The position numbers and the translations under genes are program-made. A stretch of DNA of 64,000 bases from Bacillota bacterium (GTDB lineage: Bacteria > Bacillota > UBA4882 > UBA8346): NCBI GenBank assembly GCA_029553165.1, contig JAKPCT010000270.1, positions 1 to 64,000 on the forward strand, written 5' to 3'. Below the pieces are notes generated by a model. That model saw only the letters and a program-made list of their open reading frames with translations. It did not search any database and was not told the origin of the DNA. Positions 8,501-30,037 of the stretch are shown piece by piece. Each line of letters opens with the position of its first letter. Within the stretch, counting starts at the first letter, position 1.

Positions 8501-10069
8501 TTATCCAAGAATAGTTTGTAAATCAGCTTCAGGAGTACTGATCGGCTTAATACCAAACTTTTCTGCCAATACATTTAATACATTGGATGAAATAAAAGCC
8601 GGTAATGATGGTCCAAGGTAAATGTTTTTGATACCTAACGCCAGCAATGTTAATAAAATACAAACCGCTTTCTGTTCATACCAGGACAATACTAATGTCA
8701 ATGGCAGTCCGTTAACCTCGCAACCAAAAGCATTAGCAAGCGCTATGGCAACTTGAATTGCAGAATAAGCATCATTACATTGACCCATATCCATAATCCG
8801 CGGCAAACCACCTATTTCCCCGATGTCAAGATCATTAAAGCGGTATTTGCCACAGGCCAAAGTCAAGATCACCGTGTCTTTCGGCGCTTTCCGCACAAAC
8901 TCTGTATAATAGTTACGACCAGGTTTTGCGCCATCACATCCACCAACCAAGAAAAAGTGTCTGATCGATCCGGCCTTAACTGCGGCAATAACTTGATCGG
9001 CAACACTAAGGACCGCATTTCGAGCAAATCCAGTCATTAATTCAGTCCCACCATTGATTCCGGTAAAGATTTTATCTTCACGATAACCACCAAGTTCAAG
9101 AGCCTTTTGAATGATTGGTGTAAAATCTTTGGTACCATTCTTCCCTTCCTCAATATGTTGCAACCCCGGATATCCTACAACTGAAGTTGTAAAAACCCGA
9201 TCAGCATAACTTGATTTCGGAGGCATTAAACAGTTAGTAGTAAAGAGAATTGGCGCGGGGATACTATCAAATTCTTTTTGCTGGTTCTGCCAGGCAGTTC
9301 CAAAATTCCCTTTTAAGTTCGAATATTTTTTGAGTTCCGGGTATCCATGGGCAGGTAACATCTCCCCATGAGTATAAATATTAATTCCTTTTCCCGCGGT
9401 TTGTTCAAGAAGCTGTTTCAAGTCCAAAAGATCATGACCCGAGATCACAATAAACGGACCTTTTTCTACCTTCATCGTAACTTTGGCTGGAATCGGATGA
9501 CCGTAGGCCGAAGTATTGGCTTCATCCAATAAACTCATACATTTCAGATTAATCTGACCAAACTCCATCAAGAGATCAAGCCAACCGGCAATACTGTATT
9601 CCTCTCCCAGAGCCTTCATCCCTTTATAAAACCATGCATTAACCTCAGTATCTACTTTGCCAAGCACATACGCATGCCAGGCATAAGCGGCCATTCCACG
9701 TATTCCCAAAAGTAAGATTGAGCGTAATGAAACAATATCGGTATCTCCCTGCCACAACATTTGTGAAGAATAGTTTTCCACTCCGCCCAGTTCTCTGATT
9801 GCTGCTTTAACCTCTCCAATAAGCCGGTCAATCCTGTCCGGATCAAAGTTAACATTGGTTACGGTAGCGAATAAGCTTCGTAGCATCAACTCATCAGTCT
9901 CTTTAGTAACAGCTTTTCCTAAAGCAACAGCTGCGAGATCAATCAACGCTGCCGTCAACTCATCCTGTTTATTTGCAACATCAGGTTTTTTACCGCAAAC
10001 ACCAACATTAGTACAGCCTTTACCACCCGCCGTTTGCTCACATTGAAAACAAAACATATTTGTCATCAT
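8501..10069 (-). CDS. hcp: Hybrid-cluster protein (hydroxylamine/nitric-oxide reductase)
   Basis: Hcp is an anaerobic protein reported to reduce hydroxylamine or NO and to generate S-nitrosothiols. The N-terminus shows C-X2-C-X8-C-X5-C (CFQCEQTAGGKGC, then CGKK), ligating the cubane cluster. Hybrid-cluster ligands are visible later: the SGHDLLDL and HGEMLPAHGYPEL His/Glu residues, FTTNCLMPP, LVGGCDGAKPGR and LACGKYRF. The size (522 aa) matches the class with a short N-terminal domain. Start ATG 10069 follows AGGAGGTTTTATAA. It appears monocistronic, and no hcr reductase is adjacent. It points to nitrosative-stress defence in an anaerobe. Confidence 0.95.
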   Translation of the reverse strand: MMTNMFCFQCEQTAGGKGCTNVGVCGKKPDVANKQDELTAALIDLAAVALGKAVTKETDELMLRSLFATVTNVNFDPDRIDRLIGEVKAAIRELGGVENYSSQMLWQGDTDIVSLRSILLLGIRGMAAYAWHAYVLGKVDTEVNAWFYKGMKALGEEYSIAGWLDLLMEFGQINLKCMSLLDEANTSAYGHPIPAKVTMKVEKGPFIVISGHDLLDLKQLLEQTAGKGINIYTHGEMLPAHGYPELKKYSNLKGNFGTAWQNQQKEFDSIPAPILFTTNCLMPPKSSYADRVFTTSVVGYPGLQHIEEGKNGTKDFTPIIQKALELGGYREDKIFTGINGGTELMTGFARNAVLSVADQVIAAVKAGSIRHFFLVGGCDGAKPGRNYYTEFVRKAPKDTVILTLACGKYRFNDLDIGEIGGLPRIMDMGQCNDAYSAIQVAIALANAFGCEVNGLPLTLVLSWYEQKAVCILLTLLALGIKNIYLGPSLPAFISSNVLNVLAEKFGIKPISTPEADLQTILG

Positions 10070-16960: not shown

Positions 16961-18646
16961 ATGTTTTCTAACCTACTTAACTCTCTAAAAAAAATCCTCT
17001 CCAAAATCAGCGTATTCTATCAAATCCTGTCCATTATTATCATGATGGTTATTTTGATGGTAATCCTAAGTATCAACAGTAACCAAGCTATGAGTGCAAT
17101 CCATCAAAATACTAAAACTATTTATGAAAGTTCATCTTCGATGGGAAAAGAAGATCTATCATCCGTAGCAGTTAATGTTGAAAAGATTCGCACTGTTTAT
17201 GCAGAAGCCTTGATTAATCAAACTGCATTAAAACCTAATACTCAAATCGAAATCCAGGCATTGTTTAATTTGATCCAAACAATGAAAGCTATTGATGACT
17301 CTACAAAAGAAAAGTTAGATCAATCTTTTACAACAATAAAAGCGACTATCTCCCAACCAATCACTTATAATAATTACACGATTCTCAGTAAAGAAGTTGA
17401 TAAGGTACAAGGCTTAGTCCGCTATTTACAAAACACAACTATTAGTAACAATTATAATCTCTATTTGGAAAGTGATAAACTCGCCTCAAGATTGAAGACC
17501 ATGAATTTAATAATTATGATAGTAGGTTCATTTTTTGCAGTCTTAATTGGCTTGCTTATCGCCGGATTTATCTCTCTTCCGTTAACCAAGATGGTTGAAA
17601 GGGTAAAATCATTAGGGACCGGTAATCTAACTACTCATAAAACTGATCCAATTGGTTCACTGGAAGTAACCGAAGCCGTAAAAGGACTCAACAAAGCTAT
17701 TCAGGGACTACGTAGCTTAATAATTGATGTTACAGAAAAGTCACACGCAATTGATACTGCCAGCGCCGAATTGAACATGGTTTCCATGGATACCGGCAGA
17801 TCAGCATTAGAAGTAGCAAAAGCAGCTGACGAACTTGCTACTGCTACTTCCGAACAGACTAAACAAATCACGGAAGTTGTCCACTCAATTCAAAAGTTAT
17901 CTGAGATGGTTATTCAAGTTACCAGAGACTCGCAAACAATTGGTACTTTTTCCAATCAGGTTGCTCACTCAGCAGAACTTGGTTATAAAGTTACCAATGA
18001 TGTTGCAGCAGCAATCAACTCCTTGTATAATGCCACCAAAGAAGCAGCCGATGTTATTAATGTTTTAGTGAGCACTTCAGAGGAGATCAGTTCCATTACT
18101 ACTATCATCGAAGGTATTGCTGAACAGACCAGTCTTTTGGCTCTAAATGCATCGATCGAAGCTGCCCGGGCCGGTGAGCATGGTAAAGGTTTTGCAGTTG
18201 TAGCTAAAGAAACCGGAAAATTAGCCGAACAATCCAAACAATCTGCCCGTTTGATATCTGGCTTGATTAAGAAAATCCAAGACCGGACAAACCAGGCAGG
18301 CGAAGCAATGCATCAGGGAATAGTCTTGGCTGAATCAGGTAAGGATTTAGCAACCGAAGCTACTGTAACATTCCAAGAGATTTATAAAACTTTAATGAAC
18401 ACAATCTCGCAGATTGATCTAATCGTTAAATCGACTAAGCAAATGGCAGCCACAAACGATAAGGCAACCGAAGCAATTAGTGCTATTGCAGCAATCAGTG
18501 AAGAAAACTTAGCCAGCACCCAAGAGGTGTCGGCAATTGCTGAAGAACAAAGCGCTTCAATGCAACAAGTAACTGCCTTAGCTGAAAATCTCCGCCAAAT
18601 TGCCAGTACTTTAAAACAAGCAATTGAGCTCTTCCAAATCAATTAA
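16961..18646 (+). CDS. Methyl-accepting chemotaxis protein
   Basis: Start ATG behind TTGGAGGTGCTTGA. A first membrane helix (about 20-42), a four-helix-bundle-sized extracellular sensor (about 43-183), a second helix (about 184-206, [20 protein letters not shown]), a HAMP domain ([18 protein letters not shown]) and a long cytoplasmic coiled coil are visible. The coiled-coil tip is [19 protein letters not shown]. No C-terminal CheR-binding pentapeptide. It has its own sigma-D-like promoter and converges on mtnA across a shared terminator. The ligand is unknown; position next to the sugar operon is suggestive only. Confidence 0.93.
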
Positions 18647-18673: not shown

Positions 18674-18706
18674 AAACCACCCATTAAATTGATTGGGTGG
18701 TTTTTT
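18674..18706. terminator. Bidirectional terminator between chemoreceptor and mtnA
   Basis: AAACCACCCA at 18674 pairs with TGGGTGGTTT at 18694, followed by a T-run on the plus strand and an A-run on the other side. It overlaps the last mtnA codons. Confidence 0.85.
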
Positions 18707-19763
18707 GCATTAATTCAACTATTTTAGACTCAAACGGCGGTTCGATAATTCCTTTCTCAGTAATAATTGCGGTAATATATTTGGCGGGTGTCACATCAAA
18801 GGCCGGATTGTATACTTTAACATCCAGCGGGGCAGTCCGTTTCCCCAATCCGCAAGTAACTTCATCTGCGTAACGCTCTTCAATCCGAATCTCTTTTCCC
18901 GTGGCAATCGAAATATCAATCGTTGATGTCGGAGCAGCCACATAAAACGGAATACCATGCTCTTTAGCCAAGATTGCCACTCCATAAGTACCGATCTTAT
19001 TTGCAGCATCACCATTTCGGGCCACCCGGTCACACCCAACAAAGACTGCCTGTATTTTGCCTTGCGCCATCACTGCAGCCGCCATATTATCACAGATTAA
19101 TGTCACATCAATTCCTGCTTTCTGTAATTCCCATGTAGTCAGCCTTGAACCTTGGTTTAAAGGCCGTGTTTCATCAGCAAACACCTTTAACCGTAAACCC
19201 TGTTCATGTGCAAGGTAGATTGGCGCCAATGCAGTACCGTATTTGGTTGCTGTTGCAATGGACCCTGCATTACAATGAGTTAAAATCCCCATTCCGTCTT
19301 TGATTAACGGAAGGGCATATTTGGCAATATTGGAACAGATCTCGGTATTTTCTGCTTTAATTAAATGGGCTTCCTCTAATAACAATTCTTTTATTTTATT
19401 GATGGGAAGTCCTTTCGCTCTCTGGGCGCAACTCTCCATTCGCGCCAACGCCCAGAAAAGATTGACCGCTGTTGGCCTCGAAGAAGCGAGATAGTCAGAA
19501 TGCTGCTTGAGTTCGGTCCAGAACTGTTCAAAATTTTCAGCCTCAGAATTCATTACCGCCAGATATAGTCCATAAGCAGCAGTAATACCTATGACCGGTG
19601 CTCCTCTTACTTTCAGTTGCCGGATCGCCTCCCAGACTTGTTCAACAACGGTTAATTCCTCAAAAACAGTCTCGAGAGGCAGTTTAGTCTGTTCCAAAAT
19701 TATTATTCTATCCTGTTCCCATTTGACTGAATCCCAAAAATCGGCTTCATTCAAATTACCCAT
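18684..19763 (-). CDS. mtnA: S-methyl-5-thioribose-1-phosphate isomerase MtnA
   Basis: Converts 5-methylthioribose 1-phosphate to the ribulose 1-phosphate (aldose-ketose isomerisation); homologues also act on 5-deoxyribose 1-phosphate. 359 residues, usual length. Motifs: RGAPVIG (53-59), [19 protein letters not shown] with the catalytic Cys at 164, [18 protein letters not shown], and [17 protein letters not shown] with the catalytic Asp at 245. It is last in a leftward operon with mtnK and a ribose-type importer. The classical downstream genes mtnB, mtnC, mtnD, mtnX and mtnW are not in this window. eIF2B-like relatives are excluded by the intact Cys/Asp pair. Confidence 0.95.
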
Positions 19764-19825
19764 TATATCACCTCGTCACCAATTATTATTATCTTTATTT
19801 AAGAATCTCCCAAAACAAAAGCTAT

Positions 19826-21043
19826 TTAAGCTTTCAATGCCGCATCCTGACACGCTTTGACAATATTCAAGAAGTCAGCGCCTGTCCGGATTTGATTGCG
19901 CTCCAAAATAAAGCGCTTACCGATACTAAGGCATACTCTTTCGGCGGCAGCACGCCGTGATACATCTTGAATGGTTGTAATATCTTTAACATGAGCAATA
20001 CCGATAATCCTGCGGCATAGTTCACAACCAGCCACTGCTGCCGTATCCCGAATAATACTGTCAAGGTAATACTGCGCAAACCCTGGATAAGTAGCAACTC
20101 GCTCCGTGACTTTTTGTTGCCAGAGACTCAAAAACTTACTTTTAAACAGATCGATCGTTTGGACGATTGCTGTCTCTAACCAATTCTGATAGTCACTCTT
20201 CTGCGACCCTTCTTCCATAGTCGCTTCGGCATTTTGATAAGCAAAGATCAGATTGGCGATAACATTTCCGACATCATAACCGGCCGGACCATAAAAAGCA
20301 AATTCCGGATCAATCACTTTAGTCGAGTCCGGTTTGACAAAGATTGAACCGGTATGAAGGTCTCCATGAATCAATGCTTGAGCGTTGGTCATAAATTCGA
20401 ATTTAAGTTTTGCAGTCTCCAACAGTAAGTTTGAGTCGGACCACAACTCTTGCTTCGCAAACTCTTTGGTTACGTCTAAAAGATCATTACGGGGACAATC
20501 AAAAAAGGGTTCGGTATAGACCAAATCTTCGGTGATCTCACATAAATCAGGATTGATAAATTGTTTTACCAGTTCTTTCTTTCGTTTATGATCAACCACT
20601 ACATCAGATGTTAACAGCAAGGTATTGCAGAGAAAAGTGGTAATATGCTCTACGAATAACGGAAACTGTTGATGCTCAATCAGTGCCTGCCGCATGATCT
20701 TATGATCAGATAAATCCTCCATCACACAACAGTTCATCTCCAGATCATATTGATATACTTTGGGTACTAAGCCTGGCGCCAGCTCATACTGTATTTTCAG
20801 GATTTCACTTTCAATCCGGTTTCGATCCGGTGAAACCTTAAACTCATCAGAGATCCTGGCTACCGGGCCAGCCTGTTTGATAATCAGTGATTTAGAGCTG
20901 CGTTGATCGGTAACCTTAAATATATAATTGAGATTGCCATCACCAATCTCAATACAGTTTAATTCCGCATCACTCGGAAACAGATTCTGCTGTTTACAAT
21001 ATTCAATTACATCCTTTTCTTTCATCACAAAATATTTGGACAT
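19826..21043 (-). CDS. mtnK: 5-methylthioribose kinase MtnK
   Basis: Phosphorylates the anomeric carbon of 5-methylthioribose with ATP (5-deoxyribose is also a known substrate of some homologues). A 405-residue protein-kinase-like fold: IGDGNLNYIFKV loop (33-44), catalytic IHGDLHTGSI (225-234) and metal-binding IDPEFAFYGPAGYD (244-257). All match MtnK rather than homoserine or choline kinases. It lies 62 bases upstream of mtnA and 15 bases downstream of the permease. Because MtnK acts on the free sugar, the operon appears built for an imported ribose analogue or one released by a nucleosidase, not for direct phosphorolysis of MTA. Confidence 0.94.
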   Translation of the reverse strand: MSKYFVMKEKDVIEYCKQQNLFPSDAELNCIEIGDGNLNYIFKVTDQRSSKSLIIKQAGPVARISDEFKVSPDRNRIESEILKIQYELAPGLVPKVYQYDLEMNCCVMEDLSDHKIMRQALIEHQQFPLFVEHITTFLCNTLLLTSDVVVDHKRKKELVKQFINPDLCEITEDLVYTEPFFDCPRNDLLDVTKEFAKQELWSDSNLLLETAKLKFEFMTNAQALIHGDLHTGSIFVKPDSTKVIDPEFAFYGPAGYDVGNVIANLIFAYQNAEATMEEGSQKSDYQNWLETAIVQTIDLFKSKFLSLWQQKVTERVATYPGFAQYYLDSIIRDTAAVAGCELCRRIIGIAHVKDITTIQDVSRRAAAERVCLSIGKRFILERNQIRTGADFLNIVKACQDAALKA

Positions 21044-21058
21044 CCTCTTTACCCCTCC

Positions 21059-22081
21059 TTATTTCTTTTTGTAATAAGTTAAAGTAAGTGCAGCTACAAG
21101 CACCAGTCCTTTGGCAATATCCATCGCAAAGTATGGTACTGAAAGCATTACCAGTCCGTTTTGTAAAATTCCGATTAAGATTGCACCTACAAATGTCCCG
21201 ATCGCATTTGGTTTACCTGATCCTCCAAATGAAAGACCAATATAAGCTGCTGCCACCGCATCCATCAGATAAGGTGCTCCGGCATTGATCTCTGCGGTTT
21301 GGATTCTGGAAACCAAAACAATACCGCCAATCGCCGCAAAAATCGCCGATATCAGGTAGGCGATGATCCGGTATTTATTTACATCAACTCCCGAAAGTCT
21401 TGCCGCCTCAATATTGCCTCCCACCATATACATATATCGTCCATGCTTGGTGTAAGTAAGAAAGAAATGGACTACTGCCACAATCACCAGCATGATAATG
21501 ATAATCCAGGGTATTTTACCGAGACTGTTGAAGAAATTAGTTATTTTCCCCACAGCAAATTCCCCGTTAGGCAAGACCATATTTTGGGAGATGGTACTCC
21601 CCTGAGTATATGTTAAAGCAACTCCCTGATAAATAAACATAGTCGCCAATGTCAGTAACATATCCGGAATCTTAATTTTTACAACCAATATGGCATTGAT
21701 AAACCCAAACAACATTGCTACCAAAAGTGCAACTGATATTGCCACAAATGATCCCTGACAATACCAAACAAACATTGACAAAGAGATTGCTCCGGCTACT
21801 GAAGCCACGGAACCTACCGATAAATCAAATCCACCAACCGCCAATGAAACCGTCATTCCAATTGCAATTATTGTTACAATTGAAATCGAACGGAGGATGT
21901 TTAGAATATTGTTAAGTTCTAAAAAACCATCTATTGCTAATCCAAAGACCGCAATCGTTGCAATAATGGTAAACAGAGTACCCCATTTATAGAAAAATTC
22001 ATAGTTGAAAAACCGCGGATGTTGTTTGCCGGGAGTAGTCAATTCAGTGTTGGTACTCACAACTGCCACCTCCTGTTGCAT
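21059..22081 (-). CDS. Ribose-type (CUT2) ABC transporter permease
   Basis: A 340-residue RbsC-like permease with about 8-10 membrane helices and the CUT2 signatures MTVSLAVGGFDLSVGSVASV, GGNIEAARLSGVDV and AYIGLSFGGSGKPNA. Its start overlaps the end of the ATPase gene by 38 bases, implying tight coupling. With the ATPase and binding protein it forms a complete importer whose neighbours mtnK and mtnA suggest an unphosphorylated ribose derivative as cargo. Substrate assignment is by context only. Confidence 0.92.
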   Translation of the reverse strand: MQQEVAVVSTNTELTTPGKQHPRFFNYEFFYKWGTLFTIIATIAVFGLAIDGFLELNNILNILRSISIVTIIAIGMTVSLAVGGFDLSVGSVASVAGAISLSMFVWYCQGSFVAISVALLVAMLFGFINAILVVKIKIPDMLLTLATMFIYQGVALTYTQGSTISQNMVLPNGEFAVGKITNFFNSLGKIPWIIIIMLVIVAVVHFFLTYTKHGRYMYMVGGNIEAARLSGVDVNKYRIIAYLISAIFAAIGGIVLVSRIQTAEINAGAPYLMDAVAAAYIGLSFGGSGKPNAIGTFVGAILIGILQNGLVMLSVPYFAMDIAKGLVLVAALTLTYYKKK

Positions 22082-23579
22082 AAAATAATAATTCCTCTTC
22101 AGTAGTTGATTCGGTTAAGAACTCTTTAATAAATTTACCATCGTACATTACATAAATCCGGTTAGCAATGCTTAAGATCTCCTGAAAGTCACAGGAAGCA
22201 TAAATAATTGCTTTCCCACTTTGGGCCAATTGCTTAATCAACTCAAAGAGATCATTTTTGGCATTAACATCAATTCCTTTGGTTGGTTCATCAAAAATAT
22301 AGATTTGGGCATCAGTGATCAACCACTTACCGATGACCACTTTCTGCTGATTACCCCCTGATAAAAAAGCCACCCGTACTTCTTCACTCGTTGTCTTAAT
22401 TCCAAGCTGGTCAATCATTTCCCTGGCAGTTCTCCGCTCCAGCCGGGAGTCAATAAAATGATCATGTTGGCAATACTTTTCGAGATTAGTTATTGTTATA
22501 TTGGTTTTTACGGATTCATTAATAAAGATTCCTTGATTTCTTCTTTCTTCGGGGATCAATGCTAACCCATATTCGACCGCCTGATGCGGATGATCAAAAT
22601 GGACCGGTTGATTTGCAATCAATCGTTCGCCGGATTTCAGCGGTGATGCTCCAAACAAAGCATTGCATAATTCCGTCTTGCCTGCTCCTACCAATCCGGC
22701 AATCGCCACTATTTCACCCGAATGAACCGCAAAGTTAATATCGCGAACTTTATTACGATCACTTAAGTTTTTGACTTCAAAGATTTTTTTACCAATTTTT
22801 GATTTAAATATGGTTTGCTGCTGCTTAATTTTCCTCCCCATCATTGATTCTACAGCCTCAATTTGGTTAATCTCACCAACTTGCTTCTGTAAGACTATCT
22901 CCCCGTCACGCATGACGGTGATCTGATCCGCTATTGCAAATACTTCCGGTAAACGGTGTGAAATAAAGACAATACCAACATTTTGCTCTTTCAATTCACG
23001 CACCACCCGGAATAACTCTTCAGTTTCAACCTGACTTAGTGCAGCAGTAGGTTCATCAAGGATTAAAAAACGGCATTTTTTACTGATCGCTCTGGCGATC
23101 AGCACCATCTGTTTTTCTGCTAATGTGAGCTCCTTGACTATTTTACGGGTGGCAATTTTGATATTGAGTTTATTCAAGACTTCCTCGGATTCCTCATAGA
23201 GTCTGTTCCAATTGATTAGCTGTTTTTTACCCATATTATTAATATATTGTTCAAGGATCACATTTTCGGCTACAGTCAAATAGGGTATTAGAGCCGTATC
23301 TACTTCCTGGTACACAATCTCAATTCCTAAATCTTTAGCATCTTTGGGCGACTTTATCTTTAATACCTGACCGTTTAGCGCTATTTCACCATTATAATCC
23401 TGATATACTCCCACCAGAGTCTTCATTAGGGTTGATTTCCCAGCCCCGTTGGCTCCGATTAAAGCATGGATAGTCCCGGTTTCGATTTCATAATCAACAT
23501 TATTAAGCGCTTTTACTCCAGGAAACTCCATCGAAATTTTGCTCATAGTGAGCTTATCAACTTTATTACAAGTCATCAC
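22044..23579 (-). CDS. Ribose-type (CUT2) ABC transporter ATPase, tandem domains
   Basis: 511 residues with two fused nucleotide-binding domains, typical of RbsA. The first has Walker A GANGAGKSTLM (about 42) and Walker B FLILDEPTAALS. The second has Walker A-like GLVGAGKTELC, signature LSGGNQQKVVIGKWL and Walker B IYIFDEPTKGID. The first-domain signature is degenerate (LTLAEKQMV), as is usual for the family. Start MMTCNKVDK follows GAAGGTGCAAAG. It sits between the binding-protein and permease genes. Confidence 0.93.
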   Translation of the reverse strand: MMTCNKVDKLTMSKISMEFPGVKALNNVDYEIETGTIHALIGANGAGKSTLMKTLVGVYQDYNGEIALNGQVLKIKSPKDAKDLGIEIVYQEVDTALIPYLTVAENVILEQYINNMGKKQLINWNRLYEESEEVLNKLNIKIATRKIVKELTLAEKQMVLIARAISKKCRFLILDEPTAALSQVETEELFRVVRELKEQNVGIVFISHRLPEVFAIADQITVMRDGEIVLQKQVGEINQIEAVESMMGRKIKQQQTIFKSKIGKKIFEVKNLSDRNKVRDINFAVHSGEIVAIAGLVGAGKTELCNALFGASPLKSGERLIANQPVHFDHPHQAVEYGLALIPEERRNQGIFINESVKTNITITNLEKYCQHDHFIDSRLERRTAREMIDQLGIKTTSEEVRVAFLSGGNQQKVVIGKWLITDAQIYIFDEPTKGIDVNAKNDLFELIKQLAQSGKAIIYASCDFQEILSIANRIYVMYDGKFIKEFLTESTTEEELLFYATGGGSCEYQH

Positions 23580-23683
23580 TTTGCACCTTCAAATTTGCTA
23601 GAGTTTTACATTTTCTTAACATATATCACGGGGAACACAATAATGTGTTCCCCGCTAGATAACAATAATAAAATTAAATTGAA

Positions 23684-24772
23684 TTATTTCTTTTTACTGT
23701 TTTTTGATTTGAGAGTGTTCATCCAGGGTTCAAGGAAGTCATTCGACTTACCCCAACCAGGAATTGTTTGATTGAGAGTTTGCATATTAACTTGTGACTT
23801 AGCATTTCGAAGTGTTTCCTGAGTTATTAATGCAGCATCAAAATCATAAGTTTTCGGAGTTGCTTCTCCGGCAATCTTCTTGGCAAGAATCCTCATATTC
23901 ACTTCACCAATCAACTTCGGATCAACTGCCGCCGTTGCCACCCAAGGACTGCCTTTCTCCTGCATTGCTTGGAGATCAGCGTTTGATACGTCAATACCGT
24001 AGATCTTTATTTCAGTACGTCCTGCTTCTTTTACCGCCCGCGTAGCTCCGATTGCAAAAGCATCCCAGGTTGCCCAGATAGCATCAATTGTACCTTTGGG
24101 ATGTTTGGCCAACATCGCTGCTACTGCATTTTGAGTTTCAACTGATGTATTGGCGCTGGCAACTCCAAAACGGGCAATCTCTTTAATTCCCGGATTATTC
24201 TGGAGAATCTCCCGGTAAACCTTATTCCTTCTTACCATTGGCGGGAATCCGTCAACCCAAAGGTAGATAATATTTGCTTTGCCGTTATAATCCGAAACCA
24301 ATTTACCTAATGAAAGTTTTGCCAATGATTCGTCTGCTTGTGAAGTAAGGGTTGTCCCTTTAATTTCAGTAATCTTATTGTGCGAATCAAATGCAACAAC
24401 CGGAATTCCTTTTTCCACTGCCAGTTTAACATCTTCTACCGTTGCATTATCATCACCATGTGAAATAATAATACCATCATATTTTTTCTGAATTGCCTGT
24501 GCTATTGCATCATGAAACTTAGCGGAATTTCCATTCGCAGTATAAGTATCAACTTTAAAACCTAATGATTCTCCTTCGCTTTTAGCTCCTGCTAAAAATT
24601 GCGCAGTATGGTCATCGCCGCCAATTTTTCTGATAACCATTATTTTAATACCTTTTTTGGCTTTAGCGATCTTTGCCGGAACTTTCTCGTTCGCACCATA
24701 ACATGTCGCCAAAACCAATACAAATACTAACATAAAACTAACTAATAAAGATCCAAACTTTCTGTTCACCAT
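23684..24772 (-). CDS. Sugar-binding protein of the ribose-type importer
   Basis: 362 residues with an N-terminal signal peptide (KFGSLLVSFMLVFVLVLATC); the Cys at about 24 may be lipidated, though Thr at -1 is not ideal. The mature part is a Peripla_BP_4 (RbsB-like) fold with two lobes: IMVIRKIGGDDHTAQFLAGA and DGIIISHGDDNATVEDV, then DAIWATWDAFAIGATRAVKE and IYGIDVSNADLQAM. First gene of the leftward operon; promoter elements lie in the 258-base divergent region. Homology alone does not reveal the ligand, but the operon points to a 5-modified ribose. Confidence 0.9.
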   Translation of the reverse strand: MVNRKFGSLLVSFMLVFVLVLATCYGANEKVPAKIAKAKKGIKIMVIRKIGGDDHTAQFLAGAKSEGESLGFKVDTYTANGNSAKFHDAIAQAIQKKYDGIIISHGDDNATVEDVKLAVEKGIPVVAFDSHNKITEIKGTTLTSQADESLAKLSLGKLVSDYNGKANIIYLWVDGFPPMVRRNKVYREILQNNPGIKEIARFGVASANTSVETQNAVAAMLAKHPKGTIDAIWATWDAFAIGATRAVKEAGRTEIKIYGIDVSNADLQAMQEKGSPWVATAAVDPKLIGEVNMRILAKKIAGEATPKTYDFDAALITQETLRNAKSQVNMQTLNQTIPGWGKSNDFLEPWMNTLKSKNSKKK

Positions 24773-24952
24773 CGCTTCACCTTCTTTTTTATTTTTTTAT
24801 CTCTTAACACTGTCCATTTTCTGTAAAAGCCTAATAAACAGCGAAAGATCCGGTAAAAATTTTAAATGAATATTTTCCATTTTATTCCATGTAAAGAGAT
24901 GGATAGATTAATGAATAAATAATACATCTAATTTGAGAATTATGTCAATAAC

Positions 24953-24981
24953 TTGACAAAATTTAATTTTTCTGCTAACTT
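24953..24981 (+). promoter_or_regulatory. Promoter of the transketolase-RLP operon
   Basis: TTGACA at 24953-24958 and TAACTT at 24976-24981, spaced 17. It lies in the divergent region between the importer and transketolase genes, so a single regulator could control both operons. I see no SAM-I (S-box) riboswitch, a common control of methylthioribose genes in Firmicutes. Confidence 0.55.
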
Positions 24982-25063
24982 CAATTTTAATATTATTGTT
25001 AACAATTTTTTGAATTAATTTGGTTGATTCTTGTTAATATACTCAAAAAGGTGTCTGATAAAA

Positions 25064-25984
25064 ATGAGTCAACATCTCACTGAAACAACCTGGGAAGAAG
25101 AGATCGGACGAGTTGCCCATGGAATTCGTCGCCGGGTATTAGAATATACCATTATTAATAATGGTGGTTATTTAAGTCAGGCCTGCTCTGCTGCAGAAAT
25201 TTTAGCCGCTTTGTATACCAAGATTATGAATTTAGGTCCAAGTGAAGCACCTTTAATTCCGCCTTTGTTCTCCGGAGTTCCCAGTAATCGTAATAAAAAT
25301 TATCAAACCGGCGCAATTTATAACGGTCCCAATGACCCTAACCTCGACCGGTTTTTTCTGTCACCAACTCATTATTCATTGGTTCTCTATGCAACATTAA
25401 TCGAAGTAGGACGTCTGGCACCCGAAGCCTTAAATTATTTCAACAAAGATGGTTATACCATGGAGATGATTGGTGCTGAACATTCTCCAGGAATGGAAGT
25501 TATGACTGGTTCGCTTGCTCAAGGTCTAAGTCAGGCTGCAGGAATCGCATTTGCACGTAAGTTTCGGAAAGACTCCGGGCGGGTCTGTGTAATGATGTCT
25601 GATGGTGAATTCCAGGAAGGACAAACCTGGGAGACATTTCAGACCATGGCCCATTATCAGCTCGATAATATGATTGTCTATGTCGATGTCAACCGGCAGC
25701 AATGTGATGGGTTAGTCACTGAAGTCATGAATATCGAACCATTAGCTGATAAGCTAATCGCCTTTGGAGCCGAAGTCCATCAGGTCGATGGACACAACCC
25801 CAATGCTTTGGTAACTCCGTCACTTAATAAAAAGTCAGACGGACAACCTTTAGTTGTGTTATGTTATACCGATCCTTGTGCCAAGATGGAGTTTTTAAGA
25901 AAAAGGGCACCCAAGTTGCATTATATCCGGTTTACTAACGAGCAGGAACGTGAAGAATATAACTTGGAATTACAAAAATTTTAA
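25064..25984 (+). CDS. Transketolase-like protein, N-terminal (diphosphate-binding) subunit
   Basis: The start is ATG 25064 behind AAAGGTG; a TTG 33 bases upstream has no site. 306 residues. The thiamine-diphosphate motif is SDGEFQEG (179-186) with Asn 210 as metal ligand, and MTGSLAQGLSQAAG (147-160) is intact. The His of the usual LSxGH block is kept (FLSPTHYSL). The conserved GHxGxxLS His near the N-terminus is replaced by GYLSQACS (35-42). It pairs with the next gene, which lies 65 bases downstream. Split transketolases act in several sugar pathways (apulose 4-phosphate, sulfosugars); the neighbours here suggest a C1-modified xylulose 5-phosphate. Substrate unproven. Confidence 0.88.
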   Translation: MSQHLTETTWEEEIGRVAHGIRRRVLEYTIINNGGYLSQACSAAEILAALYTKIMNLGPSEAPLIPPLFSGVPSNRNKNYQTGAIYNGPNDPNLDRFFLSPTHYSLVLYATLIEVGRLAPEALNYFNKDGYTMEMIGAEHSPGMEVMTGSLAQGLSQAAGIAFARKFRKDSGRVCVMMSDGEFQEGQTWETFQTMAHYQLDNMIVYVDVNRQQCDGLVTEVMNIEPLADKLIAFGAEVHQVDGHNPNALVTPSLNKKSDGQPLVVLCYTDPCAKMEFLRKRAPKLHYIRFTNEQEREEYNLELQKF

Positions 25985-26049
25985 CAATAGCTATTGTTGA
26001 CCGTGCTTAAGCTTATTTCAAATCACCCACTTTGAAAAGGAGTCCCTCA

Positions 26050-27057
26050 ATGGAGATACTGAGCAAAGTTTATGCTCAATCATTGGTCAATTGGGCAAAA
26101 GATAGACCTGAAGTATTAGTCTTGTCGGCAGATTTAACCAGTTCTACCGAGATCGACCTCTTCAAAAAAAACTATCCCGAACGTTTTTTATCAATGGGGA
26201 TTGCCGAACAGAATATGATCAGTTTTGCCGGTGGTCTAGCCAGGGAAGGTTTCCAGCCTTTTGTACATACTTTTGCGGTCTTTATCTACCGGCGCGCTTA
26301 TGATCAGGTTGCCATGTCAGTTGCTTACCCTAATTTGCCGGTACGGCTGGTTGGATTCTTGCCCGGTATCACCACACCCGGAGGTGCCACCCATCAAGCA
26401 ATTGAAGATATCGCTATAATGCGGGCACTGCCGAATATGACAATCTTCGAATGCGGCGATGCAACCGATATCGAATCTGTGTTAGCAATAACTGAAACTA
26501 TTCCAGGACCAGTCTATATTAGAATGCTCCGTGGAGAAGTCCCCCGCCTATTTGATCCCGCACATCCGACACAATTTGGAAAATCACGGACGATCAGTAC
26601 TGGCGATGATCTGGTCCTCATAACCAGCGGCATTTGTACTGAAGAAGCGCTTCGCGCTACTCACTGTCTGACCAAACGTGGAGTTTCAATCCATCACTTG
26701 CACGTCACTACTCTCAAACCTTTTAACGACCCTACCATTCTCGAAGCCGCGGCCAAAGCCAAACACGGGGTGATCACCATGGAAAACCATACAGTAATTG
26801 GTGGTTTGGGTAGTGCTGTTGCTGAATTATTAGCCGAATCCGGCATAGGTAAACGATTAATCAGAATCGGTCTCCAGGACACCTTCGCTCATGGTGCCAG
26901 CCGACCTTATCTAATGAAGTATTATCATCTTGATGCAACTGCATTGATCGCTCAAATCGAAGCAATGTTAAACACTAAATTTGATATTTCCGAGAACGAA
27001 CTGGCGGATGTACGTATTGAAGCTGTCCATAGCGCTGCTAAAGCGGAGGCATTGTAA
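26050..27057 (+). CDS. Transketolase-like protein, C-terminal (pyrimidine-binding) subunit
   Basis: The start is ATG 26050 behind AAAAGGAGTCCCTCA; the upstream in-frame TTG overlaps that site. 335 residues. The cofactor-activating Glu is in GIAEQNM (50-56), followed by FAVFIYRRAYDQV and GGATHQAIEDIAIMRALPNM. A C-terminal transketolase domain runs from about 190 (LVLITSGICTEEAL to GVITMENHTVIGGLGSAVAE). Its TAA overlaps the RLP ATG (TAATG), so the two are translationally coupled. With the preceding gene it makes a complete ThDP enzyme resembling both transketolase and DXP-synthase halves. Confidence 0.9.
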   Translation: MEILSKVYAQSLVNWAKDRPEVLVLSADLTSSTEIDLFKKNYPERFLSMGIAEQNMISFAGGLAREGFQPFVHTFAVFIYRRAYDQVAMSVAYPNLPVRLVGFLPGITTPGGATHQAIEDIAIMRALPNMTIFECGDATDIESVLAITETIPGPVYIRMLRGEVPRLFDPAHPTQFGKSRTISTGDDLVLITSGICTEEALRATHCLTKRGVSIHHLHVTTLKPFNDPTILEAAAKAKHGVITMENHTVIGGLGSAVAELLAESGIGKRLIRIGLQDTFAHGASRPYLMKYYHLDATALIAQIEAMLNTKFDISENELADVRIEAVHSAAKAEAL

Positions 27058-28202
27058 TGATTCCTAGTACAACACTGAACTTATCAGGAAACCGTTTTAC
27101 TGTCTGGTATCGTCTAAGCGGCACCAAAGATGAAGCCCAGACCAAAGCAGATAACATCTGTCTGGAGCAGACTGTTGAGTTTCCATATGCGTTAATTCCG
27201 GACGGACCAATCCGCGACCATATCATCGGTAAAATTGAATCATTTGATTCAATTGATGATCATCAACATTTGGTGAAGATCAGCTATGCAATTGAAACAA
27301 CCGCATTCGAACTGACACAGACTTTAAATGTTATCTATGGCAATATTAGTTTAATTCCAGGGATTCGAGTTGAAGGTTTAGAGCTCCCTGGAGAATATCT
27401 CCGTAATTTTCAAGGGCCACGTTTTGGGAGAGACGGATTACGGCAACTTTTAAATATCCCGAAACGTCCGTTGCTGTGTACTGCTTTAAAACCAATGGGG
27501 CTTTCTGCCAAACAATTAGGCGAGATAGCTTACCAGTTAGCACTTGGTGGTCTCGATATCATTAAAGATGATCATGGGTTATCCAATCAACCTTTTGCCC
27601 CTTTTCAGGAACGAGTCCGCTACTGTGTTGAAGGAGTGGAACGGGCAAACCGTCAAACCGGCAAGCAATCGATCTATATGCCGAATATCACCGCTCCAGC
27701 TGAGCGCGTTTTTGAAAATGCACTCTTTGCCAAAGAAAATGGTGCCGGTGGTCTGCTAATAAGTCCCGGACTTACCGGTTTTGACATAATTCGTCAAATA
27801 GCAATTGATCCTAATATTAAATTACCAATTTTCAGTCATCCCACGTTTTTGGGCAGCATGATTAATTCACCGGATAATGGTATCGCTCATAATGTTATTT
27901 TTGGTCAATTAACACGTTTAGCCGGTGCTGATGCCACTATTTTCCCCAATTACGGTGGGCGGTTCTCATTTAGTCTCGAAGAATGTCAGAAGATTGTTAC
28001 CGGAACAACAATACCGATGGGACAAATTAAGACAATCTTTCCTGTACCGGGCGGCGGAATGAGTCTTGCAAGGATCAATGATATGCTGCAGGTTTATGGT
28101 AACGATGTTGTACTCTTAATCGGTGGTGACTTACACCGGCACGGCCCCGATCTGACTGAAAATTGTCGCATTTTTAAGACAACAGTTGAAAGTCTGATCT
28201 AA
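27057..28202 (+). CDS. RuBisCO-like protein (type IV), probable sugar-phosphate isomerase
   Basis: 381 residues with a RuBisCO large-chain fold. The catalytic-Lys region reads CTALKPMGLSAKQLG (Lys 145). The carbamylated-Lys motif, KDDE in true RuBisCO, is KDDH (170-173) in GGLDIIKDDHGLSNQPFAPF. HPTFLGS replaces the HRAMHAA region, and the loop-6 lysine motif is absent (VPGGGMSLAR). It should not fix CO2. KDDHG-type RLPs include, as far as I recall, the Rhodospirillum enzyme that converts 5-methylthioribulose 1-phosphate to 1-methylthioxylulose 5-phosphate; MtnW enolases keep KDDE. With mtnA/mtnK across the promoter region and transketolase upstream, an isomerase role is the leading inference. 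Ribosome site GCGGAGGCATTGTA. Confidence 0.9.
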   Translation: MIPSTTLNLSGNRFTVWYRLSGTKDEAQTKADNICLEQTVEFPYALIPDGPIRDHIIGKIESFDSIDDHQHLVKISYAIETTAFELTQTLNVIYGNISLIPGIRVEGLELPGEYLRNFQGPRFGRDGLRQLLNIPKRPLLCTALKPMGLSAKQLGEIAYQLALGGLDIIKDDHGLSNQPFAPFQERVRYCVEGVERANRQTGKQSIYMPNITAPAERVFENALFAKENGAGGLLISPGLTGFDIIRQIAIDPNIKLPIFSHPTFLGSMINSPDNGIAHNVIFGQLTRLAGADATIFPNYGGRFSFSLEECQKIVTGTTIPMGQIKTIFPVPGGGMSLARINDMLQVYGNDVVLLIGGDLHRHGPDLTENCRIFKTTVESLI

Positions 28203-28333
28203 TTTCAGTCCCAAACACTAAAATGATGATTATAAAGATCCAACTGTTACTCACATATAGAGAGAAACTTATTAGATAAATAAAATAATTATTGATATTT
28301 GTGTTTATTTTGTATTTCAGGAGGATGCCAACG

Positions 28334-30037
28334 ATGCGCTTACCATTGATTAACAAGCTCAACCTCAATAGTGTGACTATAAAAATTGTAATGATCCTCG
28401 TTTTTACCAGCCTAATCACAGTAATAGTAAGTGTTATTGGCATCACTAAAATCCGAGAGATGCATGAAGTCACCAACTCAATCTACAAAGATAATACAAC
28501 CGTGCTGTTTCCAATCACCGATGCCCAGCAAGCGATGTATTCATGCCAAACTTATGCGATTCAAATGATTCAAAACAGTAATTCCAATGCAATCTCTGAA
28601 TTCTATTCCGAACTTAACAATGTTCAAGGTTATCTGGAGGAATTAGAGAGTTACATTCCTGATGAATCACTTACAGAATATCAAACCAACTATAACAATT
28701 ACAAAACGGCAGCAATGAATCTTTATAATAGTTTAATTACGTATGATTCCAACACTTCGGTCTATTACAGACGCTTCAATGAACAGACCAAGATCTTCCT
28801 CGATTACCTCTATGGTATTAACAAACGATTAAGAATTGTTGGAACCGAAACCTATGAAAGAGGAAGTCAAATATTTAATTCCGTTATTCGACTGCAATCT
28901 GTAATAACCATTATTGGTGTCTTATTATCGATTGTCTTGGCTTTATTCATTTCGATGATTGTGATTATCAAACCATTACAAGATTTACGTGACACAACTG
29001 AAAGACTTGCCACCGGAGATCTGCTATCAAAGGTTACAATTACCTCTGCTGATGAGATCGGCGCTGTTGGATTTGCTTATAATAAAGCAATCGATGAATT
29101 AAGAACTCTTTTAATTGGTACTTCACAACATGCTCAAAACATTAATTCTTCAAGTGACGATTTATTTAAAATCGTTGATGAATCGCTTCGTTCCTTAGGT
29201 GAACTCAATAATTTAGTAACCGAGTTAGCAAACAGTGCTAATGAACAGACCAATATTGTCAATTCAGCAGTTACGAAGATTAGAAACTCTGGCGAAGAAA
29301 TATCAAATGTCTTGAATGTCTTAACAACAATCGATGATACCTGTCGGGAAGTTGCGGTTGAGGCTGAACGCGGTGGTTTAGCTAACGAAACCAGTATCAA
29401 TTACATCTCCACTTTTGTGAACAATGTTGATGAGATCCAGACCACCGTTGAGGATCTGGCTCAAGATTTACAACAGATCCAGGAAGTTGTTGATGTCATC
29501 TGGGATATTTCGGAGCAGACCAGCCTTCTCTCTTTAAATGCTTTGATTGAGGCCTCCCGTGCCGGAGAACAGGGTCGCGGATTTGGTGTAGTTGCAGGTA
29601 ACATCAGGTCTCTCGCTTATCAATCGAAAGAATCAGCCGAAAATATCAAAAATCTGGTATTCCGGATTTTCGACAAGACTACTCAAACTGTAAATTCCGT
29701 AGCGAAAAGTACCTCAGAGATCAAAAATACCCAATATACTTTAACCGAAACCATGGGGATCTTTGACCGGTTGATCGAACGCGTCAACCAAATTACCACC
29801 GAGCTAAAGAGTATCTCTACAATTGCCAAAGGGGTCCATAATTTTACCCAAGTGATTGTTTCCGAGATGAATAAATTAGTTGTAACCAGCGAGGACAATC
29901 TTGCTGCTACCGAAGAAGTTGCAGCAACTTTCCAACAACAATATGCCTCGATGGAAACACTTAATAATGCCGCCCATAATTTACGGCAATTAGCTAAAAA
30001 ACTGGAAGAATCATCTAAGAAATTTATCCTGTACTGA
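28334..30037 (+). CDS. Methyl-accepting chemotaxis protein downstream of the RLP gene
   Basis: The AGGAGG at 28319-28324 favours ATG 28334 (MRLPLINKL), giving 567 residues. Layout: first helix about 17-38 ([19 protein letters not shown]), a sensor with Tyr/Asn-rich helices (about 40-190), second helix about 193-220 ([18 protein letters not shown]), HAMP ([19 protein letters not shown]), and a signalling tip [21 protein letters not shown]. No terminator or sigma-D-like promoter is visible in the 131 bases after the RLP stop, so it is probably read from the same transcript. It may guide cells toward the sugar the cluster consumes. Confidence 0.92.

Follow-up and report, generated by a model that had tools for sequence, protein, structure and literature searches.

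The stretch of DNA considered here, referred to as the window, comprises the first 64,000 nucleotides of contig JAKPCT010000270.1 in the assembly of a Bacillota bacterium (GCA_029553165.1). It carries two divergent operons. The minus-strand operon encodes the binding protein, ATPase and permease of an ATP-binding cassette (ABC) importer, followed by MtnK and MtnA, while the plus-strand operon encodes the two chains of a transketolase-like enzyme (TkN and TkC) and a RuBisCO-like protein (RLP). These genes are best read as an import-and-salvage module for 5-methylthioribose (MTR) that ends in cleavage of the RLP product by TkN and TkC, a reading to which a probability of roughly 0.65 is assigned. 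Gene identities, conservation, exclusivity with a cupin and active-site changes come from sequence, and from these we infer the substrates, the C2–C3 cut and the products.

In the proposed pathway, the ABC importer would take up MTR, MtnK would convert it to MTR-1-phosphate, and MtnA would isomerise this to 5-methylthioribulose-1-phosphate (MTRu1P), from which the RLP would form 1-methylthioxylulose-5-phosphate (MTXu5P). The two-chain thiamine pyrophosphate (TPP) enzyme TkN+TkC (TkNC) would attack the C2 ketone of MTXu5P and break the C2–C3 bond, so that glyceraldehyde-3-phosphate departs while a two-carbon unit with the methylthio group stays bound to TPP. Phosphoketolase and sulfoacetaldehyde acetyltransferase expel a beta leaving group from a TPP-bound two-carbon unit, giving acetyl-TPP and then acetyl-phosphate. 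By analogy with these enzymes, to which TkNC is likened purely in mechanism, the bound unit may shed methanethiol to give an acetyl unit (acetyl-phosphate or acetate). Such an elimination would be the most likely single outcome, at somewhat less than even odds, followed by release as methylthioacetaldehyde, which is rather unlikely. It is a tentative and somewhat doubtful proposal that TkNC is a new TPP enzyme converting MTXu5P to glyceraldehyde-3-phosphate, methanethiol and acetyl-phosphate, which would make it an oxygen-independent, energy-conserving methionine-salvage step across bacteria and an archaeon.

Domain and family profile matches confirm every gene, with its position, that an earlier note on this DNA had named. 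The genes of the module and the region between the operons are as follows:

18684..19763, minus strand: mtnA, 5-methylthioribose-1-phosphate isomerase (TIGR00512, 449.9 bits; cut-off 279)
19826..21043, minus strand: mtnK, 5-methylthioribose kinase (TIGR01767, 466.7 bits; cut-off 275)
21059..22081, minus strand: ABC importer permease, CUT2/ribose type (PF02653)
22044..23579, minus strand: ABC importer two-domain ATPase, RbsA/XylG type (domain matches)
23684..24772, minus strand: substrate-binding protein (Peripla_BP_4), probably for 5-methylthioribose as a relative of 4ry8 and 5ulb
24773..25063, no strand: divergent intergenic region between the importer operon and TkN
25064..25984, plus strand: TkN, N-terminal (TPP pyrophosphate-binding) chain of a split transketolase-like enzyme (PF00456, Transketolase_N)
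26050..27057, plus strand: TkC, C-terminal (pyrimidine-binding) chain of a split transketolase-like enzyme (PF02779, Transket_pyr; PF02780, Transketolase_C)
27057..28202, plus strand: RLP of DeepYkr type, predicted 5-methylthioribulose-1-phosphate 1,3-isomerase (RuBisCO_large match; best PDB match 3qfw)

Conservation of the gene set

With the window RLP as query, 302 relatives were found among the candidate genome-collection stretches, and the best 80 of these were taken together with five loci from whole genomes, giving 85 loci. Both TkN and TkC lie near the RLP gene in 54 of the 85 loci, and a single chain is found in four more. Among the 58 loci with TkC, 49 have the TkC gene overlapping the RLP gene or at most 60 bp away. 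This association is far above chance. It extends over about ten phyla, with hosts that include Bacillota, Chloroflexota, Spirochaetota, Nitrospirota, Calditrichota, Elusimicrobiota, Planctomycetota, gammaproteobacteria and a Lokiarchaeota metagenome-assembled genome (MAG). No RLP relative was found in viral contigs.

In Clostridium ljungdahlii and C. drakei, all eight genes (three for the importer, mtnK, mtnA, TkN, TkC and RLP) stand side by side as a single run. The full set is also present on plasmids of Rhizobium, Ensifer and Shinella, where the importer genes are transcribed divergently from an mtnK-mtnA-TkN-TkC-RLP array, and Mariluticola has at least seven of the eight. In the annotations of the Rhizobiaceae plasmids, TkN, TkC and RLP are named merely as transketolase or DXS-like and RuBisCO C-terminal-like proteins. 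Gene content and conservation are near certain. An association unique to one genome, which the earlier note had named as speaking against its proposed route, is not what is seen: the set recurs across phyla and is complete in Clostridium and Rhizobiaceae. MtnA was detected in all 54 RLP genomes tested, and the window MtnK is 64–71% identical to the MtnK of four other RLP clusters (L056, L071, L105 and L113).

Probable exchange of the transketolase pair with a cupin

At loci without TkN and TkC, a small cupin often adjoins the RLP gene instead. In R. rubrum and R. palustris, the RLP product is the substrate of a cupin, the methylsulfurylase (PMC4958253, PMC5893883), and the RLP-adjacent cupins are inferred from position and size to be the same enzyme. 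A cupin match (E up to 2e-15) is present in 18 of the 23 RLP genomes that lack an RLP-type TkC but in only one of the 31 that have it (Fisher p 6e-9), the p-value being indicative as the 54 genomes were chosen partly by local context. Under a stricter count (cupin identity at least 43%, E < 1e-36), the figures are 12 of 23 and one of 31.

In a maximum-likelihood tree, the RLPs of the transketolase and cupin kinds are intermingled, with 12 label changes, at least four of which are forced by well-supported branches, and no column of the RLP alignment separates the two kinds. The simplest reading is that two unrelated enzymes, both of which use up the RLP product, have repeatedly taken each other's place. 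This interchange places the transketolase-like enzyme on the RLP product, as the earlier note had proposed in putting it downstream of the RLP; use of that product by the TPP enzyme is, judged from these sequence patterns, highly probable. The reductoisomerase of 1-deoxyxylulose-5-phosphate (DXP) was also considered as a divider between transketolase and cupin genomes, and was rejected because its presence follows lineage.

An altered active site in TkN and TkC

Active-site residues were compared across 61 pairs (55 TkN+TkC pairs plus six from plasmids), using the numbering of E. coli transketolase (EcTK). The TPP-binding residues D155, N185, E411, F437 and H473 are retained (N185 in 54/55). 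In all 61 RLP-linked pairs, however, His26 is replaced by Tyr, His100 by Met and Asp469 by Gly, and His461 is replaced by Leu; the signature of the window TkC at EcTK468-470 is PGG in place of EDG. Of 17 ordinary split transketolases taken from these and related genomes, all retain His26, His66 and His100, and 16 retain Asp469. The RLP-linked TkC forms a separate family, with 58–73% identity to the window TkC as compared with at most 42% for paralogues. A Pro/Gly-rich segment of TkN (residues ~74-99; window 25250-25327) is present in RLP-linked TkN but absent from ordinary split transketolases, and may contribute to the remodelled active site. The TkN model (pLDDT 86.7) has as its best fold match the N chain of the C. 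hydrogenoformans split transketolase (6yak). Residues of the donor site are His66, His100, Gly114 and His473, and DXS has Phe at position 100 (PMC7661550). The loss of His100 fits a donor without a C1 hydroxyl. TkNC is probably a dedicated TPP enzyme acting on MTXu5P. The earlier description of the pair as a transketolase holds for homology and TPP binding, but the pair is not an ordinary transketolase, as donor and acceptor residues are replaced in every member.

An ordinary pentose-phosphate transketolase for downstream sugars, with its adjacency to the RLP incidental or regulatory, would account for the clear transketolase homology, which includes the characterised C. hydrogenoformans split enzyme. 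It is the least probable of the explanations weighed here, given the substitution of His26, His100 and Asp469 in every pair, the separate TkC family and the mutual exclusivity with the cupin. The window genome also has a separate, ordinary split transketolase (contig C52) as well as DXS (contig C274), which makes the TkN/TkC pair of the window an extra, dedicated enzyme.

The Leu that replaces the phosphate-side contact His461, together with the remodelled C3–C4 contacts, would also suit an enzyme acting directly on MTRu1P or another sugar phosphate, with the RLP performing a different step, and a Vibrio variant described below employs an FGGY kinase. Arg520 and Ser385 are nevertheless retained in TkNC, a Lys or Arg stands at or beside EcTK358, and direct action on MTRu1P would leave both the cupin exchange and the identical RLP active sites unexplained. 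It is highly improbable.

DXS is a TPP enzyme related to TkNC in sequence and likewise without His100 (Phe). It is a single chain that keeps His26 and Asp469, whereas TkNC is transketolase-like at EcTK381, 385 and 434, and the DXS pattern (His26, Phe100, Ala381, Tyr434, Asp469) is not found in TkNC. This comparison bears on a further explanation, in which the module serves isoprenoid synthesis and RLP and TkNC supply or tap the DXP pool as an alternative to the methylthioadenosine (MTA)-isoprenoid shunt. The cupin version of the pathway does give DXP (PMC4958253), a plasmid TkN has been automatically annotated as a DXS N-terminal protein, and transketolase variants at His100 acquire pyruvate use (PMC7661550). 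Against this, searches revealed no DXP reductoisomerase in several genomes with TkNC, among them Alkalispirochaeta and the Lokiarchaeota MAG, the window genome encodes a DXS of its own, and the DXS-type residues at the three positions are missing from TkNC. A role in isoprenoid supply is therefore very improbable.

The RuBisCO-like protein

The closest PDB match of the window RLP is 3qfw (E 8e-75), ahead of MtnW, Photo RLP and true RuBisCO, and its scores fall far under the MtnW and RuBisCO equivalog cut-offs. By its closest relatives, the window RLP is of the DeepYkr type. We take 3qfw to originate from R. palustris and to represent its RLP1, since RLP2 is covered by a separate entry (2qyg). 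The window RLP and 3qfw have 67 of 81 family-invariant positions in common, including all the catalytic positions compared; K145, K170, D171, D172, H173, H261, N298, and the GGRF and Gly motifs are identical. From MTRu1P, RLP1 and its R. rubrum counterpart produce MTXu5P and the ribulose epimer of MTXu5P in a ratio of 3:1 (PMC5893883). A 2020 paper described related RLPs of acetogens, spirochaetes and allied groups as having no known function (PMC7325909). At locus L075, a ribulose-phosphate 3-epimerase (Rpe) gene overlaps the RLP gene, and its product could rescue the wrong epimer formed by the RLP.

Probable imported substrate and product clues

The permease, the two-domain ATPase and the Peripla_BP_4 protein make up a CUT2/ribose-type importer. 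Its binding protein has as closest solved relatives an uncharacterised Yersinia protein (5ulb, 54% identity), then 4ry8. In a fold search with a model of the binding protein, 4ry8, titled "5-methylthioribose transporter solute binding protein TLET_1677", is matched at 33% identity. A 4ry8-homologous binding protein thus clusters with mtnK and mtnA in the window, and homologues lie near TkNC-RLP in Anaerolineae loci L078, L084, L104 and L110. MTR is, on this sequence relationship, quite probably the main substrate, and its import, as the earlier note had it, gains support from the solved MTR transporter protein.

Neighbouring genes provide further clues. At locus L060, the RLP gene is followed by genes for MetX, a cystathionine gamma-synthase (CGS)-like enzyme and cysteine synthase (CysK), with single genes of these kinds at L120 and L123. 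An operon on a Ponticoccus alexandrii plasmid (L192, 1-8131) encodes a purine-nucleoside phosphorylase, an amidohydrolase resembling MTA/S-adenosylhomocysteine deaminase, MtnA, a BisC-family S/N-oxide reductase, TkN, TkC and RLP. The reductase is as expected for a thioether substrate, and the operon could possibly provide a route from MTA or its sulfoxide. The neighbours favour a methylthio sugar with sulfur recovery, without proving release of methanethiol.

The same enzymes could instead handle 5-deoxyribose derived from radical-SAM by-products, the RLP then forming DXP, whose cleavage would yield glyceraldehyde-3-phosphate together with either acetaldehyde or an acetyl unit. A donor without a C1 hydroxyl suits the Met at position 100 and the DXS-like loss of His100 here too, and an MtnK-like kinase takes MTR and 5-deoxyribose at similar efficiency (PMC6079011). 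The closest liganded binding protein, however, is titled for 5-methylthioribose, the cupin that replaces TkNC strips a methylthio group (PMC4958253), and the S-oxide reductase, MetX/CGS and CysK neighbours indicate sulfur. Use of 5-deoxyribose is improbable. Of the two substrates proposed earlier, methylthioribose is retained, and the version with 5-deoxyribose and acetaldehyde is the less favoured.

Observations that weigh against the proposed pathway

Besides the dual specificity of MtnK-type kinases, several observations weigh against the salvage of MTR through cleavage of MTXu5P. The argument from C1 leaves the loss of His26 and Asp469 unexplained, which is the main loose end. The changes of His26 to Tyr and Asp469 to Gly alter contacts to C3–C4 of the sugar, a part that is identical in MTXu5P and xylulose-5-phosphate, and the TkNC substrate may be positioned otherwise or may differ. 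The exchange with the cupin also has exceptions: one genome (G443/L096) has both the transketolase and the cupin, and four RLP genomes without the transketolase are without a clear cupin.

Some TkNC-RLP clusters contain class II aldolase, short-chain dehydrogenase/reductase (SDR) or LsrF-like genes. Loci L104 and L110 (Anaerolineales), L075 and L098 combine an LsrF-like thiolase, a split RhaD-type aldolase/SDR pair, an RpiR regulator or Rpe with MtnA and TkNC-RLP. The aldolase, LsrF-like and Rpe neighbours suggest branching pathways. On a Vibrio nigripulchritudo plasmid (L191, 5019-9638), TkN-TkC has as neighbours an RLP that has diverged and a xylulokinase-like kinase of the FGGY family, and mtnK and mtnA are absent from the stretch. 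This TkN-TkC has the same Tyr/Met/Gly signature, while the RLP differs at His173, Asn298, Gly300 and other sites. The TkNC pair is thus not tied to MTR everywhere, and the variant perhaps represents the same chemistry on a different sugar.

Relation to known systems

The MTA-isoprenoid shunt of R. rubrum and R. palustris resembles the proposed pathway in MtnA, the DeepYkr RLP with an active site identical at the compared positions, and the predicted intermediate MTXu5P. Its cupin is replaced in the window by a two-chain TPP enzyme expected to break a C–C bond, and its MTA phosphorylase by a kinase and an importer. The dihydroxyacetone phosphate (DHAP) shunt, or 5-deoxyribose salvage (MtnK/DrdK, MtnA/DrdI and class II aldolase Ald2/DrdA), has the kinase and isomerase steps in common with the window, and some of its clusters contain sugar transporters (PMC6079011). 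Its aldolase is absent at the window locus, where the expected cut would give glyceraldehyde-3-phosphate rather than DHAP. The distinction that the earlier note drew from the DHAP shunt holds at the window, where there is no aldolase, but is less sharp among those relatives whose clusters also encode a class II aldolase, an LsrF-like thiolase or Rpe.

The C. hydrogenoformans split transketolase (6yaj/6yak; PMC7661550) is alike in two-gene architecture, fold and TPP-binding residues. The window pair differs from it by the replaced His26, His100, His461 and Asp469, the extra TkN segment and the link to an RLP. Tlet_1677 (4ry8) has the same fold as the window binding protein and full-length homology to it, although the latter is nearer 5ulb.

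No description of an RLP-transketolase link was found in openly searchable papers, a scope outside which the two founding 2012 papers on the MTA-isoprenoid shunt fall. What is new is apparently the enzyme at the decisive step, within a known kind of pathway, methylthioribose salvage through an RLP. The methylthio sugar is a universal by-product of S-adenosylmethionine, and polyamine makers and radical-SAM users produce MTA or deoxyadenosine. The recycling of these compounds in strict anaerobes is, to our knowledge, only partly known. The proposed pathway assigns to this group of RLPs a partner enzyme, together with a probable substrate and a defined intermediate, and puts forward a TPP enzyme whose active site is unusual; if confirmed, it would add another recycling route for the S-adenosylmethionine by-product. 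The module is present in the culturable C. ljungdahlii and Ensifer, which makes the prediction directly testable.

Layout of the window locus and its surroundings

Start codons were refined by reading the window sequence. TkN likely starts at ATG 25064, and TkC at ATG 26050, which is preceded by AAAAGGAG. The RLP gene starts at ATG 27057 with a one-base overlap with the TkC stop (TAATG). No Rfam elements were found in 14-32 kb of the window.

Neither an MtnB/Ald2-type class II aldolase nor a cupin lies near the locus, in agreement with the earlier statement that mtnB, aldolase and cupin genes are absent nearby. A genome-wide search, in which 23 other genomes served as positive controls, gave no cupin match in the window genome, and there was no credible match to the MtnB family PF00596, MtnD not having been searched genome-wide. 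The assembly contains a single RLP. The sole class II aldolase of the window genome sits with a second MtnA and a GSCFA-like gene on the 3,775-bp contig C95 (L187), which is probably a Bacteroidota contaminant; contamination of the assembly is 7.27%. A parallel DHAP shunt built on this second MtnA and aldolase was considered and dropped, as both are on the 3.8-kb probable contaminant.

The gene directly 3′ of the RLP encodes a methyl-accepting chemotaxis protein (MCP):

28334..30037, plus strand: MCP (chemoreceptor) 3′ of the RLP gene, a sporadic neighbour

It starts at about ATG 28334 after AGGAGG, ~130 bp 3′ of the RLP gene, and MCP genes border the cluster on both sides (window 16961-18646 and 28334-30037). 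A chemoreceptor gene lies directly 3′ of the RLP gene in Alkaliphilus (L054) and nearby in L094, and is close to the RLP gene in few loci overall. The sensor domains of receptors near other RLPs gave no match to that of the window MCP. The chemoreceptor, earlier taken as a linked component, probably lies outside the conserved module. Farther from the locus, a gene for a hybrid-cluster (prismane) protein at window 8501-10069 is consistent with an anaerobic host.

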